From a virus: a stretch of DNA of 34,458 nucleotides. The notes beneath the pieces are model-generated. The model made no database searches. It was given only the letters and a program-made list of their open reading frames with translations, and had not been told where the DNA came from. Below are positions 11,355 through 34,458 of the stretch, piece by piece. Positions within the stretch are counted from its first letter, which is position 1; the number at the start of each line of letters is the position of its first letter. Both the position numbers and the translations under genes were made by a program. The DNA lies in the IMG/VR virus record IMGVR_UViG_3300030090_002688, positions 1 to 34,458 of that record. The stretch is one strand, 5' to 3'.

Positions 11355-11975
11355 ATGATCAAGGATATAGTAGAAAAACCAATAAATGATTTAATCTTTG
11401 CAGATTATAATCCTAGACAATTATCGGAAGATGAATATAAGCATTTAAGGGAAAGCATAGAAAAATTTGGTTTAGTGGATCCTATTATCGTTAATAAAAA
11501 TAAAAAACGAGAAAATATTATTATAGGAGGACATCAACGAGTCAAAGTAGCGAGAACTATGAACATTAAAAAAGTTCCCTGTGTAGAATTAGATCTAACA
11601 TTAGAGCAAGAACGAGAGTTAAATATTAGATTAAATAAAAATACAGGTACTTGGGATTGGGATATATTGGCGAATATGTTTGATATTGATGAATTACTAG
11701 AGTGGGGTTTTAAAGATTTTGAATTAAAAATAGATTACAAAGAAACTTTAGATAAAATGGCTGAATGGGAAGGTATGCCTGAATTTGATAATGAAAATTT
11801 AGAAGCATTTAAACAAATTAGAGTTTCTTTTAAAGATGAAGATAGTATTAAAGCATTTGCCAAATTAGTAGGACAAAAAATAACAGAAAAAACAAAAAAT
11901 ATTTGGTATCCTAAAGAAGAAATTAATGTAGTTAAACATAAACAATATGTAGATGGTGAACAAATTGAATCCTAA
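11355..11975 (+). CDS. ParB-like nuclease-domain protein, DNA-modification associated
   Basis: The 206-aa product starts after AAAAGGAGAAAAA. Its N-terminal domain follows the ParB/Srx pattern: PINDLIFADYNPRQLSEDEYKHL, FGLVDPIIVN, and GGHQRVKVARTM at about residues 58-69 (ParB box 2). The C-terminal segment (EAFKQIRVSFKDEDSIKAFAKLVGQ, then TEKTKNIWYP) is typical of phage ParB-like proteins that sit beside DNA base-modification enzymes and terminases. It lacks a centromere-binding helix-turn-helix, so plasmid-type partition is unlikely. It overlaps the glycosyltransferase by 23 nt. A role in selecting or cutting DNA for modification or packaging is inferred from family context. Confidence 0.85.
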   Translation: MIKDIVEKPINDLIFADYNPRQLSEDEYKHLRESIEKFGLVDPIIVNKNKKRENIIIGGHQRVKVARTMNIKKVPCVELDLTLEQERELNIRLNKNTGTWDWDILANMFDIDELLEWGFKDFELKIDYKETLDKMAEWEGMPEFDNENLEAFKQIRVSFKDEDSIKAFAKLVGQKITEKTKNIWYPKEEINVVKHKQYVDGEQIES

Positions 11976-12840
11976 ATATCCATTATATATCGTATCAAAA
12001 AACAGAGCAGACAGCAGATTAACAGCAAAATCACTAGAAGCTATGAATGTCCCATATAATATTGTTATAGAGGAATTTAACTATGATGAATATGCGGCAG
12101 TTATTGATCCTAAAAAAATATTGATCTTGCCTGAAAGATATTTTGATGAATATGATGTTTGTGATGATTTAGGCAGAACCAAGAGTACAGGTCCCGGTGC
12201 AGCAAGAAACTTTGTGTGGGATCACTCAATAGAAATGGGATACGATAGACATTGGGTAATGGACGATAATATTGATCACTTTTACAGATTTAATAAAAAT
12301 GAAAAAATAAAAGCATTTAGTGGATCCATATTTAGAGCAATGGAAGATTTTTGTGACAGATATGAGAATGTGGCTATGGCGGGTCCGAATTATGCTATGT
12401 TTGTTCCTAGAAGAAAAAACCACCCACCATTTATAATGAATACAAGGATCTACTCTTGTAATTTAATTTTAAATAAAGCACCATATCGTTGGCGAGGTAG
12501 ATATAATGAAGATACTGATTTAAGTTTGCGAATGCTTAAAGATGGTTGGTGTACTATTGAATTTAATGCTTTTTTACAGAATAAAGTAAATACACAGGTA
12601 ATACAGGGAGGTAATACCAAAGAATTTTATGCAGAAGAAGGAACATTACCTAAATCTAAAATGCAATTAAAATTACACCCTGATGTATCCAAAGTAGTAA
12701 TGAAATATGGTAGGTGGCACCATCATGTAGATTATGGACCATTTAAAAGTAACAAATTAATTAAAAAGAAAAATTTACAAATACCTAAAAAAGTTAATAA
12801 TTATGGAATGGTATTTAGAGAAAATCAGGATTTATTATGA
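11953..12840 (+). CDS. TET-associated glycosyltransferase (TAGT)-like DNA glycosyltransferase
   Basis: The 295-aa product opens with YPLYIVSKNRADSRLTAKSL and has TGPGAARNFVWDHS, then VMDDNIDHFYRF (D104-D105, the metal/sugar-nucleotide site) and GRYNEDTDLSLRML (E186-D187, likely catalytic). This is the order of the TAGT family of GT-A enzymes, known from phages with oxidised or otherwise modified bases, where they add sugars to hydroxymethyl-pyrimidines in DNA. Neighbours are a ParB-like gene (23-nt overlap) and the terminase genes, as described for TAGT loci. No TET/JBP oxidase or methyltransferase is visible, so the acceptor base is unknown. TTG 11965 with GGTGA upstream is an alternative start. 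G+C is locally higher than in neighbours. Confidence 0.82.
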   Translation: MVNKLNPKYPLYIVSKNRADSRLTAKSLEAMNVPYNIVIEEFNYDEYAAVIDPKKILILPERYFDEYDVCDDLGRTKSTGPGAARNFVWDHSIEMGYDRHWVMDDNIDHFYRFNKNEKIKAFSGSIFRAMEDFCDRYENVAMAGPNYAMFVPRRKNHPPFIMNTRIYSCNLILNKAPYRWRGRYNEDTDLSLRMLKDGWCTIEFNAFLQNKVNTQVIQGGNTKEFYAEEGTLPKSKMQLKLHPDVSKVVMKYGRWHHHVDYGPFKSNKLIKKKNLQIPKKVNNYGMVFRENQDLL

Positions 12841-26994: not shown

Positions 26995-27402
26995 AATGTT
27001 TGGATTAGTTGTAATGGTTTAAATCGCACTGCTTACTCTGATGTAGATTTTCCTTATCAAGCTATGTCATTATCTAAAAATAAATATATTACATATAATA
27101 ATTTAGATGATGTATATAATGAGTTAGATGCATTATATGATATAGCAATAGAAAAAGGATTTGATTTGGGAGAAGCATTATATAGTCAAGCATTACATTT
27201 TGTTGATTTATGTTATTTAATAAATGAAGAAATACAAGATTTTATTAAAAAATATCAATTTTGTAAAATGTTTAATGCACTACCTTATAAATCTTACGAA
27301 GATACACCTAAAGAAATTGTTGATTTATTTATTATGATAAACAAAGAGATTGAAGCCAATCAAGCAAGTAAAATTAAAAAAAATAATAAAGGTAATAACT
27401 AA
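26971..27402 (+). CDS. Tail assembly chaperone extension (gpT-like), made by -1 frameshift
   Basis: Reading on in the -1 frame after the slip site adds about 143 residues to the 89-aa short form (VDEILLRINVWISCNGLNRT...), giving a 232-aa G-GT-type fusion. The ATG at 27064 is internal, with no ribosome site before it (TTATCAAGCT), so independent translation is unlikely. The extension is helical (EALYSQALHFVDLCYLINEE) with a lysine-rich end. The TAATG overlap with the tape measure gene is as in other siphoviruses. Confidence 0.85.
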   Translation, partial: VDEILLRINVWISCNGLNRTAYSDVDFPYQAMSLSKNKYITYNNLDDVYNELDALYDIAIEKGFDLGEALYSQALHFVDLCYLINEEIQDFIKKYQFCKMFNALPYKSYEDTPKEIVDLFIMINKEIEANQASKIKKNNKGNN

Positions 27403-29453
27403 TGGCTAAAGGTAATACTTGGTTTTTAAATATTCGTGCTAAAGGTGTTGAAAAAACAACCAACGATGTTAAAAAATTAAAAAATAATATGGGAGATTTA
27501 GGATCCACTGTTAGAAAATTGGCAGTTGGATTGGGAGCAGTTTATTTAGGAAAATCTTTATTAAGTGCGGCAAAAGGAGCAATAGATACTGCGGCACAAT
27601 TTGAAACCTTACAATTACGATTAGAAAATATGTATGGATCTGCTGAAAAAGGCAAAAAAGTATTTGATGATTTTGCTAAAATCGCGGCGACAACACCATT
27701 TGAATTAGCCAATGTAGTAGAAGCAGGTGCGGCACTTAAAGCATTTGGATCTAATGCAGAAGAAACATTAAAACCTGTTGCAGATTTAGCAGCATTTATG
27801 GGAACAGATGTAGTAGATGCGGCAAATGCAGTTGGTAGAGCCTTTGCAGGTGGAGCAGGTGCGGCAGATGTATTGAGAGACAGAGGTATTTTACAATTAA
27901 TAAAAGATTCACAAGGGATAGTAGATCTATCATCACTTACATTACCACAATTTAGAAAAGCCATGTTTGATACTCTTGCAGACCCAAGAATGGGGATTGT
28001 AGGTGCTACAAATAAATTATCAAAAACATTTTCAGGAATGGTATCTAATTTAAAAGATAATATAGAAATGATGAAGGCGGCGATAGGTGAAAAATTTATT
28101 GAAGATTTAAAACCTATTATTGCTAGTATAAACCAAGAATTAAGTGAGATGGGTAATATTGGTTGGGATTTTGTAGGTCAAGCATTTATTAATAATTGGA
28201 AGGAAATATTTAAACAATTAGCAGGTATATTTTTTGAATCAGGTTTGTTTTTAGGCAAAGCATTGGTGCAAGGTTTCGGTATAGGCATAGATGATATTAC
28301 TTTACAAATGTCCGAATTAAACAAAAAAGTATTTGAAAATGTACCATTGTGGAATAAAATTTTTGCAGATAATAATGAAAAGTTTATTGCTAAAGTAGAT
28401 TATGATAATCAAAAATTGGTTACTGATTATAAAAAGAAAATACAAGAAATTAAAGTTGATTTTAGTACATTATTTGATAATATAAAACAAGAAGCAAGAC
28501 AATTAGCACAAGATGCTGTTGTGAAACCAATACAAATACAAAATCCATTTTTTGGAGTTTCACCAACACTTGGACCTGAATCACCTTTTGATGCACCTGT
28601 ATTAGAAGAAAGTGGCCAAGAATACATAAGTGTTTTAGAGGCACAGCAACAAAAAATATCTAATTCATTAAATAGTCAAGTAGAAGAACTTATTGCCTAT
28701 GGAGTTTCACAATCAGAAGCAGAGGCTTGGAAAAATGAGCAATTATTATTAGAAATGCAAAAGTTTGAAGATTTAAAAGAACAAATGCGACTTGATTCAC
28801 TTGAAAAAAATATAGAAGCACAAGATGCAGATGCTTTAGAATTTGAACAATTTAAAATTGGACTAGAAAAAAAGACAAAGGCTTTAAGAGATGCAGGTGT
28901 TGCAGATGCTAAAATTGAAGAATGGAAATCAAAAGAAATAGCCAAGTGGCAAAAAAAGGATTTACAAAGTAGATTACAAATAGGATCACAATTAGTAGGT
29001 GCATTAGCAGGTTTGAATGATCAGATGAAAGGATCAGCAAAAGTAACTGCTAGAATGCAACAAATTCAAGCAGTAATTAATGCTTATGCAGCAGCAAATG
29101 CGGCAATAGCACCTCCACCTGTGGGACTTGGACCAACACCTTTGGGATTTGCAGCAGGTGCAACTGCTTTAATATCAGGATTAGCCAATGTTGTCGCCAT
29201 ATCACAAAGTATAGGTGACTTTGCTAAAGGTGGAGATTTTGTTACACAAGGCGAACAGATTATTAGGGTAGGAGATAATCCCGGTGGTAGAGAACGAGTG
29301 CAAATCACACCATTATCTTCGCCAAACATCAATGGGCCAAAGGGAAGTGATATCGTGGTAAACATAAGTGGAAATGTAATGAGTGAAAATTATACAGAAG
29401 ATGTAATAATTCCACATATACAAGATGCAATTAGGCGAGGGGAAACTTTATAA
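27402..29453 (+). CDS. Tape measure protein
   Basis: The 683-aa protein has an N-terminal helical segment (GVEKTTNDVKKLKNNMGDLG) and the family block FETLQLRLENMYGSAEKGKK. TPFELANVVEAGAALKAFG and ADVLRDRGI follow, then long helices/coiled coil and a hydrophobic GFAAGATALISGLANVVAI near the C-terminus before FVTQGEQIIRVGDNPGGRER. It fixes tail length; at about 0.15 nm per residue the tail would be near 100 nm (estimate). Its C-terminal hydrophobic region probably inserts into the host membrane during DNA entry. No lysozyme or peptidase domain is seen. Confidence 0.93.
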   Translation: MAKGNTWFLNIRAKGVEKTTNDVKKLKNNMGDLGSTVRKLAVGLGAVYLGKSLLSAAKGAIDTAAQFETLQLRLENMYGSAEKGKKVFDDFAKIAATTPFELANVVEAGAALKAFGSNAEETLKPVADLAAFMGTDVVDAANAVGRAFAGGAGAADVLRDRGILQLIKDSQGIVDLSSLTLPQFRKAMFDTLADPRMGIVGATNKLSKTFSGMVSNLKDNIEMMKAAIGEKFIEDLKPIIASINQELSEMGNIGWDFVGQAFINNWKEIFKQLAGIFFESGLFLGKALVQGFGIGIDDITLQMSELNKKVFENVPLWNKIFADNNEKFIAKVDYDNQKLVTDYKKKIQEIKVDFSTLFDNIKQEARQLAQDAVVKPIQIQNPFFGVSPTLGPESPFDAPVLEESGQEYISVLEAQQQKISNSLNSQVEELIAYGVSQSEAEAWKNEQLLLEMQKFEDLKEQMRLDSLEKNIEAQDADALEFEQFKIGLEKKTKALRDAGVADAKIEEWKSKEIAKWQKKDLQSRLQIGSQLVGALAGLNDQMKGSAKVTARMQQIQAVINAYAAANAAIAPPPVGLGPTPLGFAAGATALISGLANVVAISQSIGDFAKGGDFVTQGEQIIRVGDNPGGRERVQITPLSSPNINGPKGSDIVVNISGNVMSENYTEDVIIPHIQDAIRRGETL

Positions 29454-32400
29454 TGTTTGTATCTGATAATTATAAAAGTGATATTTTATCAAATAATACA
29501 AAAATTACACCTGTTATAGTAATTGAAAAACAAATAGGTCAAAACGATTGGGAGTATTATTCGTTTTCTACAAAAAGTATGGAAATTCTTATTGTAGAAA
29601 GTGGAGGGGAATTAAGGCCAATACACTGTGAGCCATATTTGTTATCTGTACCAAAAGTAAAAGATTCTATTGATGTATTTACTCATAAATATAAAACATC
29701 TAATATAAAACTAGAATTAAGTAATGCTGAATATAATGGAAAACGAATTGCTGATATATTTGAAAATACAAAAGTAGCAAATATTGATATATCTATATAT
29801 TATAAATCACCTACTACATCTAGAGTTCAACCATTTCATTTAAGAAATCAATATGGAAACAATTATAAAGATTGTTTAAAAATATATACAGGAAAAGTAC
29901 GAGATATAAATTTTACAACTAATAAAATAAATTTATCACTAGAGGATTTATCATCAGCAAAAATACATAAAAATTTGCCTAAAAGGAAAGTTGGTACAGA
30001 GTCACACCCTAAATATAGGGATAAATATATACCTATTGTATATGGAAATGTAATATCGCCTTTAATTCAACTTGACACACAAACCTTTGTAAGTGATACT
30101 GAACCAATATATGGATACAATCAAGACTCTTATCGTCTTGATGCATTAGAAGAACCACAATGGTTGTATTATAATTCAATATATATTTATTATAAAAAAG
30201 AATATATATCATTAGCTAGAAATGTATATTATAAATTTGTAACACAAGAAACTATAGATGGGCTTCCCAATCCAAATTATACAGATATAAATTTAGGTTA
30301 TTCGCAATATACAATTAATAATGACAATGAAATTATAATACCAATTCAAGGTTTAAGATCAATAAATAGAATACAATGTGTTTATGATGGAAGGCCAAGT
30401 GATATTAAATTGTTACGATATGATTATAAGGGAGGATCCGAAGGAAATGCAAATCAAAGTGGCTATGATTTAATAGGCAGAGAGGGTTTCCAAAAAATAA
30501 TTACTGATGGTCAAACACATAATGTTATAGACATGATGGAATGTAAGGCAGATATACGACCTGTATTTATTGATAATAGTACTGATCAATGGTTTGATTA
30601 TCCAATTCCTTGTTGGTTATTTCAATGGAATTATCATAACGAGAATACTGAATGGAGTATATTATTAGAAACAAAGTTAAATGATGCATTATTACCAACT
30701 CCGGGTGACACTTCAGAGTATCAAACAAATGTTGGAACAGATGGTTGGTATGTTAATTATAATGTAGAATCTGAACCTTTTGCTCCAAGTGTATGGCTTG
30801 GGGATAATAGGATTGGATTAAATGCTATAAATCCAAATCAAACATTTAGAACTGATAATAATCCATATAATTCTAATACAGCATTATTATACGAATTTGA
30901 GTTATCACAAGTAGTTCCACTTGCAGGTAATGCTATTTGGTGGGCGAGTATGCATACAACATCAAAATATCAAAATTTTATTAATAATATATGTATGGCT
31001 AGTGGAAATAGTTATTCAAGTCATCAAGGAGGGCAGGTTAATTGGAATAATGTATCATCAATATTATATTGTGATGATCAAATTGCTAAAGCTAATAGTG
31101 ATCCTAATAATTTTACATATAGGAATTGGAATGATAATGCAGATTTTAAATTACAATCCGAAATGCCTTATAGTCCTGATAATGCTTCTACTTGGCAACA
31201 CGATTGTGCTCCGGTATTAAGATTTTCACAAGGTAAACATGTATATGCAGATTTTGATTCATCTTCAGATGATAACATAGAACGACAACCATCTAATTAT
31301 TACAATATAGGTATATTTGGTTGTGTGCATTATGATAATTCAGCAACAAATCCAAGTACAAATACAGGTAATTCTACATTAACTTCAGATTATAGAATGC
31401 ATATGAATTTTGATATTAAAAATGTAGAAGTTAAATCTGTTGTTGATTATGATGAAGCAGATGAAAAAGAATTTTATGGAAATATATATGGTAGGACAGA
31501 TGATGAATTGATAAATTATCCACACGAAAATATGCAACCTGATTATTGGGGCGAATATTTATCAAATCCGATAGATATTATACGACACATAGCTAAAATT
31601 GAATTAGGCATAGAACATTTTGATGAAGATGAATTTAAAATTGCTTGGGAAGAACATAGAGGCCAACAATTTGCTTTTGCTGTAATTGATGAAATAAATT
31701 CTAAAAAATTACTAGAAAAAATATCAGAGTCTACATTTTCATATCCTAGAATTAAATCTGATGGTTCATTTGGTTTTACAACAATAAAAGAAACATACAA
31801 CCAAGATGATTATGAAAATGCAATTACTATAGATGAAAAATATATAATTAGAAATAGTTTTAAATTATCTAGTCCCAATAAAGTCATAAGCAAATTAACA
31901 ATGTCTTGGGGTAAAGATTATGCAATGAATAAATACACAAATCATTATGAACCATCACCATCACAATCATCTACTATTTATAATATTACACAGATGGACA
32001 ATGAATATGGAACACCATCTAAAAATTTTTCAGGCATAGAAAACCAAGAAGATAACCACAAACATTTTAAATCAGATTATTTTCAAGGAATAGGTTATTC
32101 CAATATACCGACAACATTTCGTAAACGAAAATTTGAAAATGAAAAAGTGCAACATTTAATATGTAAAATAGAACTACCATTACAATATTCATATTTAGAA
32201 ATAGGTGATTTAATAAAATTTCCAAAAGATAGATTAATAGATAATATAAAACCACATGGGATTGATTATACAAATCCTATTGCATTTGGTGGATCTGTTA
32301 GATATCCATTATTTTTAATTACAAGTATAAGTAGATCATTAAATGGATTAGCAATAGAGGGATTCCAATTACATTCATTAGCAACACCATATCACTCACC

Positions 32401-33577
32401 TATAGAAGTTGATCCATATAAAGATACCACAAATGATGCATTTTGGGGGCAAGATGGATTTTTTGAAAATAGCAATTATATTGATCCATTTAGATTGATT
32501 AATTGGGAAACACCTCCTGAAATTGAATTACCTGAACCACCACAATTAACAGGGCAAATGTTAATTGGTTATAATAGTCAATTTTCGCCAAATGATGATT
32601 TACAATTAGATAGTTCATATTCACGAAGATTTCATATACATAATAATCAAATGGGCGAAGATGGCTTTGGAGAGGGTGCATGGCAATATTGGTTTTGGTA
32701 CACAGAAACAGATCCATTAAGATATGATAATATAAATTATTATTTTTCAGATTGGGAAAATGAATTATATGGACCTGCTAGATTTGGATTAAATTCATAT
32801 ATGGATTTAGTGCCTGAAAAAAATAATGATAATTCAGGATATGGTTCCATATTGAATGGTTTAGGAGATGAACAAGTAGGTGGTTTTATTGCAATGACTC
32901 ACAAAGTTCATGTTGAATTGGAAATGGGATCCTATGGATATAATGATGCACCTTATGACCAAAAAATTGAATTACGAAATATAGCAGGAACCATATTTGA
33001 TGAAGAATCAGGCTTTTATGATCCAAGTGCTATTATTCCTGATACTTGGAACGAATGTATAATTGATTATGATATGCATTCAACTGAAATACGATTAGAT
33101 TGGGTAGGTTTTAGAGGCGATGGAACACTTATATTCAAAACTAATCCCATTATTATTGAAGAATTTCAAGGAGAAGATCCATTATTGGGAATGAATCCAA
33201 TACGAAAATCACAAAAATATCTTTTAATGACATGTAATGCTTATTCAACAGATTTAGGAGGTGAAGATGGATTATATTATAGTCACTCATTAACATTATA
33301 TCCAAGAGGTATACCAAATGAAATGTCAAATTTAACATTAGCTTACAATGGAGTATGGAATTTACAATTGTTTAAAGATTTATTTGCTGCCGGAAATGGA
33401 GATAGCAATTTAGATGGTAATTTAAATGTTTTAGATGTAGTTGGTACGGTTGCACATATATTGGGTAATGGGGAATTAAGTCAAGAAGGTCAACAAGTTG
33501 CAGATTTTAATGGAGATGGAAGTTTAAATGTGTTAGATGTTGTATTAACCGTAAGTCATATTTTAGGAAATGATTAA
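29453..33577 (+). CDS. Large tail-hub/tail-tip protein with C-terminal type I dockerin
   Basis: At 1374 aa this is the largest protein. The N-terminal ~250 residues (VDSIDVFTHKYKTSN-type strands, PKYRDKYIPIVYGNVISP) and the segment PIDIIRHIAKIELGIEHF with EKISESTFSYPRIKSDG, around residues 700-770, are those of siphovirus hub proteins that close the tube and hold the tip. The central region is Asn/Tyr/Trp-rich and variable, probably receptor-facing. The last ~60 residues form two Ca-binding dockerin repeats: DSNLDGNLNVLD (DNA 33401-33436) and DFNGDGSLNVLD (33503-33538), each followed by an IL(G) helix. Dockerins bind cohesins on cell-surface proteins. No signal peptide is seen, as expected. 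Confidence 0.85.
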   Translation: MFVSDNYKSDILSNNTKITPVIVIEKQIGQNDWEYYSFSTKSMEILIVESGGELRPIHCEPYLLSVPKVKDSIDVFTHKYKTSNIKLELSNAEYNGKRIADIFENTKVANIDISIYYKSPTTSRVQPFHLRNQYGNNYKDCLKIYTGKVRDINFTTNKINLSLEDLSSAKIHKNLPKRKVGTESHPKYRDKYIPIVYGNVISPLIQLDTQTFVSDTEPIYGYNQDSYRLDALEEPQWLYYNSIYIYYKKEYISLARNVYYKFVTQETIDGLPNPNYTDINLGYSQYTINNDNEIIIPIQGLRSINRIQCVYDGRPSDIKLLRYDYKGGSEGNANQSGYDLIGREGFQKIITDGQTHNVIDMMECKADIRPVFIDNSTDQWFDYPIPCWLFQWNYHNENTEWSILLETKLNDALLPTPGDTSEYQTNVGTDGWYVNYNVESEPFAPSVWLGDNRIGLNAINPNQTFRTDNNPYNSNTALLYEFELSQVVPLAGNAIWWASMHTTSKYQNFINNICMASGNSYSSHQGGQVNWNNVSSILYCDDQIAKANSDPNNFTYRNWNDNADFKLQSEMPYSPDNASTWQHDCAPVLRFSQGKHVYADFDSSSDDNIERQPSNYYNIGIFGCVHYDNSATNPSTNTGNSTLTSDYRMHMNFDIKNVEVKSVVDYDEADEKEFYGNIYGRTDDELINYPHENMQPDYWGEYLSNPIDIIRHIAKIELGIEHFDEDEFKIAWEEHRGQQFAFAVIDEINSKKLLEKISESTFSYPRIKSDGSFGFTTIKETYNQDDYENAITIDEKYIIRNSFKLSSPNKVISKLTMSWGKDYAMNKYTNHYEPSPSQSSTIYNITQMDNEYGTPSKNFSGIENQEDNHKHFKSDYFQGIGYSNIPTTFRKRKFENEKVQHLICKIELPLQYSYLEIGDLIKFPKDRLIDNIKPHGIDYTNPIAFGGSVRYPLFLITSISRSLNGLAIEGFQLHSLATPYHSPIEVDPYKDTTNDAFWGQDGFFENSNYIDPFRLINWETPPEIELPEPPQLTGQMLIGYNSQFSPNDDLQLDSSYSRRFHIHNNQMGEDGFGEGAWQYWFWYTETDPLRYDNINYYFSDWENELYGPARFGLNSYMDLVPEKNNDNSGYGSILNGLGDEQVGGFIAMTHKVHVELEMGSYGYNDAPYDQKIELRNIAGTIFDEESGFYDPSAIIPDTWNECIIDYDMHSTEIRLDWVGFRGDGTLIFKTNPIIIEEFQGEDPLLGMNPIRKSQKYLLMTCNAYSTDLGGEDGLYYSHSLTLYPRGIPNEMSNLTLAYNGVWNLQLFKDLFAAGNGDSNLDGNLNVLDVVGTVAHILGNGELSQEGQQVADFNGDGSLNVLDVVLTVSHILGND

Positions 33578-33580
33578 AAA

Positions 33581-34189
33581 ATGACAATAGTAGATTTAAA
33601 AAGATTTCAAGGAAATGGAATTAGAGCGATTGATGGAGAAGTTACATTTGATATGGGCGATAAAGTAATAGGCTTTGAAATTGATTATAAAGGCAAATGT
33701 GAATTAGAAAATTATGATATTCCAAATTGGTTATTTCAAGGCAATACTAAAAAAATCATTGGTGTTTCATTAGATGGAAAACCGATAGGTTTAAATCCAT
33801 TTTTAAAATATATAGGTAAATTTAGTATTCAAAATTGTATAATAGTTAATACAGATATGCAATCCTATCAAGTATCTTGCTATGAAAATATAACAGATCA
33901 TTTTGAAAATCAAATAGAAACATTTAGTAGTGATAACAGATATTTTAATGAATTAGATAATAATGATAATAATAAAGGCATACAAAAAATTACAAAAACA
34001 AAATTAAATTTGGTTACAAAAAATTTATCAACAAATCAAAATATAATAAAAAGTAGTTTAAAAATTGATCAAAAAGATTATATTGGCGATTTTCATATAG
34101 ATAATGGAAAAATTAAAACAGGCAAAGAACCTGATAGAAAAAGTATAATTATAAATAATATACCAAATACAAGGGGAGGAAGCTATTAA
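33581..34189 (+). CDS. Tail protein of unknown function, 202 aa
   Basis: The ATG lies 3 nt after the hub stop. The N-terminal ~110 residues are beta-rich (GNGIRAIDGEVTFDMGDKVIG; FSIQNCIIVNTDMQSYQVSC); the rest is polar, Asn/Lys-rich and probably extended (LDNNDNNKGIQKITKTK). It belongs to the tail-tip block by position. TAATG overlap links it to the last tail gene. No family is recognised. Confidence 0.72.
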   Translation: MTIVDLKRFQGNGIRAIDGEVTFDMGDKVIGFEIDYKGKCELENYDIPNWLFQGNTKKIIGVSLDGKPIGLNPFLKYIGKFSIQNCIIVNTDMQSYQVSCYENITDHFENQIETFSSDNRYFNELDNNDNNKGIQKITKTKLNLVTKNLSTNQNIIKSSLKIDQKDYIGDFHIDNGKIKTGKEPDRKSIIINNIPNTRGGSY

Positions 34190-34458
34190 TGTCTTACACA
34201 GAAGTTAAAAAACCTGCATTTTTTGTTTCGTATCTTGATTATTTACAAAATATAGGACAAATAGCATATCAAGACGATCCATTAAATGATATACATTTAT
34301 TAAATCCAAGTAAAACACATAGAGTTGATGGAATGAATACAGATAGCACTCAAGAAATCATATTTGAATTTAATGGTGATGTTCATTATCAAAATTTAAT
34401 AGATGAAGATGATTATATTTATATATTTGTATTAGGACATAATTTTCATTCTACAGAT
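34189..34458 (+). CDS. Tail structural protein, N-terminal part (continues at base 101)
   Basis: ATG 34189 overlaps the preceding stop and has GGGGAGGAAGCT just upstream. The first 90 residues (MSYTEVKKPAFFVSYLDYLQ..., then NPSKTHRVDGM) lead into a beta-rich region (IIFEFNGDVHYQNLI; YIYIFVLGHNFHS). The frame runs off the window end and continues exactly in phase at base 101, giving a 353-aa protein ending at 892. Probably a tail-tip or distal tail component. Confidence 0.8.
   Translation, partial: MSYTEVKKPAFFVSYLDYLQNIGQIAYQDDPLNDIHLLNPSKTHRVDGMNTDSTQEIIFEFNGDVHYQNLIDEDDYIYIFVLGHNFHSTD
34359..34458. repeat. Terminal overlap, right copy
   Basis: Matches bases 1-100 with a single mismatch (A at 34360, G at 2). 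Together the copies show that the ends join inside the tail gene; the unique length is then about 34,358 bases. Confidence 0.9.

Follow-up and report, generated by a model that had tools for sequence, protein, structure and literature searches.

A type I dockerin at the end of a siphophage tail-tip hub protein and a cohesin-like domain encoded by the adjacent gene

The window, that is, the whole 34,458-nt stretch of viral DNA that was analyzed (IMG/VR record IMGVR_UViG_3300030090_002688), is a true fragment of a phage genome, low in GC (26–33%), and encodes ERF, DnaD-like and ParB-like proteins as well as terminase, the major capsid protein and the tape measure protein. At its right end, the hub gene begins at the very end of the tape measure gene, as in a structural operon, and is followed by two further genes, d1 and d2. 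The features of this region are:

27402..29453, + strand: tape measure protein, 683 aa (PF20155 TMP_3, E 2.5e-11; PHROG tape measure families), with the hub immediately downstream
29453..33577, + strand: 1374-aa tail-tip hub (T5 pb3 / lambda J class) ending in a dockerin (BLASTP homologues; model of homologue L127)
29453..30127, + strand: hub conserved block 1, residues ~1–225 (BLASTP blocks against dockerin hubs)
31370..32422, + strand: hub conserved block 2, residues ~640–990 (alignment A1)
32423..33397, + strand: variable region leading from the hub core to the dockerin (lies outside the conserved blocks)
33398..33574, + strand: type I dockerin, residues 1316–1374 (PF00404 above cut-off; invariant or nearly invariant Ca-ligand columns; match to solved dockerins by profile)
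33401..33436, + strand: Ca-binding loop 1, DSNLDGNLNVLD, residues 1317–1328 (from the sequence)
33503..33538, + strand: Ca-binding loop 2, DFNGDGSLNVLD, residues 1351–1362 (from the sequence)
33581..34189, + strand: d1, 202 aa, the proposed docking partner (found after nearly every hub)
33611..33886, + strand: cohesin-like beta domain of d1 with nine predicted strands, residues 11–102 (pLDDT ~95; Foldseek; hhalign to host cohesins 90–94%)
34189..34458, + strand: d2, the next tail gene, start only (N-terminus like the d2 family MSYQNVGTPRFYV...)

In other loci the d2 family MSYQNVGTPRFYV... comes after d1, and in the window d2 is cut by the contig end.

The hub open reading frame, P0001, is intact. 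No Pfam family other than Dockerin_1, and hence no enzyme domain in Pfam, was detected in it, nor was any PHROG match; tblastn gave no match among annotated phage records, and a search of viral contigs by exact peptides found no direct relatives of the whole protein. The class of the protein was assigned from the structural model of a 955-aa homologue (L127, 28% identical to the window hub), the best PDB matches of which were hubs of the T5 type, T1 and lambda, including a DT57C baseplate chain with an E-value of 3.5e-17. The hubs T5 pb3, lambda J and T1 (8hqz_A, 7zhj_b, 8k35_A, 9l9p_S) share with P0001 the position after the tape measure gene and the predicted architecture; they are not known to carry a dockerin. 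Thus, the name of tail hub given in the original prediction was correct, and P0001 is, as judged from the modelled homologue and the gene order, a siphophage tail-tip hub of the T5 pb3 / lambda J class. In the L127 model, the stretch matching the variable region of the window hub has pLDDT values below ~46. A host gene on a misassembled contig was considered as a source of the dockerin hub and was rejected, because the hub core is that of a tail hub and its neighbors are genes for terminase, capsid and tape measure.

At the extreme C-terminus of the 1374-aa hub, two Ca-binding loops followed by helices had been predicted, and their positions proved exact. Both loops carry the Ca ligands D/N/D/N/D at positions 1, 3, 5, 9 and 12, a V-V-x-x-V-x-H-I-L-G helix comes after each of them, and the hub stops 12 residues past loop 2. 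The suggested profile search with PF00404 matched hub residues 1316–1365 above the cut-off (28.9 bits, E 1.3e-6, cut-off 22.9), while a nucleotide-level search for the dockerin gave 34.4 bits and two homologues scored 35.7 and 41.8 bits. A phage-dockerin profile made without the window scored 72.5 bits on the window hub; with a parallel profile that included the window, the maximum over 2000 shuffled copies of the hub was 7.4 bits. Across 30 phage dockerins the Ca-ligand positions were invariant or nearly so, and a profile of these 30 matched Clostridium thermocellum CelS, Xyn10B and other solved dockerins (E 6e-9 and weaker).

The fold was modelled in the homologue L127, and there the predicted loop-helix units were as in a solved dockerin: the last 59 residues superposed on the dockerin of a solved cohesin–dockerin complex (2ccl_B) with an rmsd of 1.0 Å, a TM-score of 0.88 and 37% identity. 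The helices span residues 909–920, 927–933 and 943–954 (loop-helix, linker helix, loop-helix) with pLDDT values of 81–94, and the module is preceded by a linker that was modelled with very low confidence. These results indicated that the C-terminus of P0001 is a genuine type I dockerin, which, by its ligand residues, probably binds Ca2+; type I dockerins need Ca2+ for folding. Chance or an assembly artefact as the source of the dockerin was rejected on the Pfam and profile scores and the recurrence in dozens of independent contigs.

To find how widespread the arrangement is, IMG/VR was scanned for the NVLD-type repeat, which yielded 76 contigs; an open reading frame homologous to the window hub was present in 59 of them, and the dockerin was C-terminal in nearly all. 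Because this search had selected for the dockerin, a second search of viral contigs was run by the hub core only (alignment A2), the contigs of which overlapped partially with those of the NVLD search. This search gave 66 hubs whose 3′ end was complete: 50 carried the dockerin, and for five of the remaining 16 it formed the C-terminal end of the product of the gene immediately following. L160 and L170 have one degenerate Ca loop left. The dockerin module moves as a unit, being either fused to the hub or borne on a gene of its own. The claim that the dockerin is not a standard tail domain held for phages generally, but not within this phage group, in which it is standard.

The gene next to the hub was equally constant. 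Of 109 dockerin hubs, 105 have d1 after them; no downstream open reading frame was listed for the four exceptions (L033, L071, L124 and L188), probably because the DNA ends there. Three hubs lack the dockerin and contain d1 within their own polypeptide, namely L184 and L191 (63 and 66 bits) and, with a weak score, L176 (11.6 bits); a hub–d1 fusion was found in none of the 109 dockerin loci (Fisher p 6e-4). These arrangements are most simply read as a need for hub and d1 to be connected, which most of the phages would meet through dockerin and cohesin and a few through a covalent link. A small gene with a single EF loop stands between hub and d1 in L151 and L153.

A cohesin profile from the dockerin-rich Neomarinimicrobiota clade described below matched four of 10,660 phage open reading frames, and all four were d1, directly after the hub. 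When 35 phage families were compared by hhalign with the host cohesins, d1 reached a probability of 93.7% and all others 0.7% or less; in a further run d1 gave 90.1%, and the reversed-sequence, dockerin and hub controls 0.1–0.3%. The AlphaFold model of the window d1 has nine strands at residues 11–102 with pLDDT ~95, and in a Foldseek search against 350,542 chains cohesins took ranks 1, 2, 4, 5 and 6, at E-values of 0.009–0.05 and TM-scores of 0.24–0.41 with half of the query being of low confidence. The likeness was detected only with the profile from the host clade: no d1 member of alignment A4 reached the PF00963 cut-off, the d1 profile found no cohesin in the PDB by sequence, and no classical cohesin was found in 50 phage records. 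Since d1 lies below the Pfam Cohesin threshold, its N-terminal domain is named cohesin-like, which it is by profile and predicted fold. With the cohesins proper (PF00963; 2xdh, 5nrm_A, 5nrk_A, 5n5p) it shares a predicted nine-strand beta domain, as well as the match to the Neomarinimicrobiota cohesin profile; in contrast to them, it has ~92 rather than ~140 residues, stays under the Pfam threshold and belongs to a phage gene beside a tail hub.

The likely host was then sought through the dockerin, which the original prediction had taken as a clue to Marinimicrobia. The phage dockerin profile matched 143 of 244 Neomarinimicrobiota genomes vs. a single genome among 194 from a Bacteroidota order, and many of the former hold at least 26 scored dockerin matches (54–192 first-look candidates). 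Similar to those of the phages, 41 of 54 sampled host dockerins stop no more than five residues from the end of the open reading frame or of the fetched stretch, and loop positions 10–11, the recognition positions, read VL or IL in host and phage dockerins alike. For 33 of 74 phage dockerins the best distant match was a host dockerin, and the window dockerin was closer to a host protein than to any phage protein. The proposed search of marine genomes located both the closest dockerin found and cohesin-bearing proteins in Neomarinimicrobiota: the former (L253/L292) belongs to a surface protein at whose end a type IX secretion sorting tail was recognized by eye, and which has as neighbors a TonB-type receptor and a protein whose end is cohesin-like. 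Pfam Cohesin was above the cut-off in 135 of the 244 genomes. In the dockerin-rich clade, some cohesins lie in secreted proteins of 1500–3070 aa, in which as many as 11 cohesin-like modules were counted with a clade-specific profile partly trained on those proteins, Pfam giving one per protein in the two scanned; one giant multi-cohesin protein ends in a type IX secretion sorting tail.

No provirus with a dockerin hub was found in the Neomarinimicrobiota genomes, and distant dockerin-less hubs were present in four of them outside the dockerin-rich clade (including L111, L112 and L115). Part of the window DNA gave only short weak matches to these genomes, the best in a contig that appears T4-like by eye. 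Judging from the dockerin sequences, the host is likely the dockerin-rich Neomarinimicrobiota (SAR406) clade.

Dockerin distances correlated with hub distances at r 0.32, vs. 0.68–0.86 for equal-sized pieces of the hub. This weak tracking, together with the host best matches of 33 among 74, suggests that the dockerin module has probably often been exchanged with the host or between phages. Frequent exchange would also fit a dockerin obliged to match host cohesins. Coevolution of dockerin and d1 was considered as support for their contact and was set aside as weak and not decisive, the partial correlation being 0.10 with 15 of 300 permutations as high.

Two functions had been offered for the hub dockerin, that is, holding another virion protein or docking on host cohesins. 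The former is the better supported, because d1 is cohesin-like and, in three relatives without a dockerin, forms part of the hub, and a joint inside the phage tail tip is therefore favored as moderately probable: we infer that the hub dockerin plugs into the cohesin-like domain of d1. Carried on a variable and probably flexible linker, the dockerin would fold with two Ca2+ ions and insert into the N-terminal domain of d1, which would thereby be attached where the hubs of T5 and lambda bear the central fibre or the receptor-binding end. The dockerin/cohesin joint was probably acquired, perhaps repeatedly, from the surface system of the host lineage. More broadly, we lean slightly towards a large SAR406 siphophage group having a tail tip with a complete dockerin/cohesin-type joint, with a reduced cohesin and of host derivation. 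Several observations speak against an internal joint. Ca2+ is scarce in the cytoplasm, the site of tail assembly, so the joint might perhaps form only after lysis; neighboring genes can fuse without prior contact, and only three cases are known; d1 falls below PF00963 with weak Foldseek E-values (0.009–0.05), and the dockerin follows the hub at r 0.32 only.

Docking on the host, in which the dockerin would be the receptor-binding end of the hub, mimic the C-terminal tag of host proteins and dock on surface cohesins in adsorption, appears possible but less likely. It draws on a host clade whose genomes each hold dozens of such C-terminal dockerins, on cohesin-bearing genomes with the giant multi-module secreted proteins, on the shared VL/IL recognition positions, on the closeness of the window dockerin and those 33 others to host dockerins, and on dockerin evolution uncoupled from the hub; Ca2+ would be supplied by sea water, and T4-like phages, in the available DNA of which no d1 was found, bear a dockerin on a secreted protease. 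However, it leaves unexplained both the cohesin-like next gene and the absence of the dockerin where d1 is fused to the hub, and the host in it is itself deduced from dockerin similarity. That dockerin and cohesin-like domain each engage host partners, with the hub–d1 pairing as a cap or switch, would agree with the presence of both halves in the phage and of both partners, cohesins and dockerin-tagged proteins, in the likely host, but it requires two specificities, and we regard it as improbable. Isolated Ca loops do exist as structural elements, and L160 and L170 retain such a single degenerate loop, as would suit an EF-hand-like end that is a mere Ca-stabilized cap or hub–hub contact binding no cohesin; this is very improbable, as both loops, the helices and the recognition positions are conserved like those of binding-competent dockerins, and the whole module travels together, whether attached to the hub or encoded separately. 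The internal joint with d1 is thus the preferred reading.

Dockerin/cohesin pairs are known from bacteria and archaea, in which they hold surface enzymes together. If the phage joint is true, it has no viral precedent that we found in the open-licence literature, and viruses would assemble or aim their tails with the same strong calcium-dependent joint; they may have borrowed a bacterial plug-and-socket for building or aiming tails. For the phages of SAR406, which are abundant and almost uncultivated marine bacteria, the finding offers a specific link to a host and a receptor model that can be tested. The open-licence literature held nothing comparable on dockerins in phage tails or Marinimicrobia; within it, hub and type I dockerin are each of known kinds, while their combination and the probable partner are new. 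The word dockerin does occur for two phages, as a BLAST note for VvAW1 gene 40, a gene near the putative attP (PMC3558961), and for vB_EcoS_HSE2 Gp02, a carbohydrate-binding-module fold match (PMC5967307), but neither is a hub-borne dockerin. ANME archaea have noncellulosomal scaffoldin-like proteins with up to five cohesins (PMC9012536), and this system likewise joins surface proteins by dockerin and cohesin outside cellulose degradation, although it is cellular and the present one viral.

With the type I dockerins of cellulosomes (PF00404; CelS 2mte, Xyn10B 1ohz/2ccl), the phage dockerin has in common the two DxNxDGxxNxxD loops, the fold and the extreme C-terminal position, whereas those are borne on enzymes and this one on a tail hub. 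A cellulosome consists of dockerin-tagged glycoside hydrolases on a scaffoldin, and the phage hub, having no enzyme domain, does not qualify. The recognition positions are typically S-T in C. thermocellum dockerins and V-L in those of the phages; in the profile alignment, CelS reads N-S-T-D.

The BFVD/UniProt entry A0A516M0J8 was 100% identical to the cohesin-like protein encoded directly after the hub, d1 (window 33581-34189), indicating that the window phage or a near-identical one has already been deposited. Another entry, A0A516LNX3 (1389 aa), aligned with d1 across 97 columns, so that it may represent one more case of d1 fused to the hub. In two phages, both with a weak hub dockerin, a second dockerin was found within d2, the tail gene following d1:

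L061:2143-3954, minus strand, d2 tail gene with second dockerin
L168:4305-5627, plus strand, d2 tail gene with second dockerin

Five distant hub homologues (L111-L115) were found in four Neomarinimicrobiota genomes, all outside the dockerin-rich clade. On full-length reading, L111, L112, and L115 carried no dockerin and stopped directly after the hub core.

Separately, giant secreted Neomarinimicrobiota proteins, L240 (3070 aa), L233 (2904 aa), L231, and L239, resemble scaffoldins in carrying multiple cohesin-like modules, up to 11 per protein, and their genomes encode dozens of dockerins. No report of such giant proteins was found among the open-licence papers searched.

A dockerin was also encoded by a trypsin-like secreted lipoprotein gene with an in-frame TGA, on five contigs apparently of T4-like marine phages:

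L016:3721-4662, plus strand, TGA-interrupted protease gene; also at L032, L056, L057, and L076

At all five loci, representing three distinct sequences, TGA fell exactly at the conserved Cys position (SWGYG-TGA-A..YPGVYS), and the frame continued past it into the dockerin. The product is a candidate selenocysteine or otherwise recoded protease. A check for local RNA structure turned up no strong fold; tRNA-Sec scored above threshold in many likely host genomes.

Two adjoining window genes are a sign of hypermodified phage DNA:

11355-11975, ParB-like gene
11953-12840, TET-associated glycosyltransferase (PF20691, E 9e-40)
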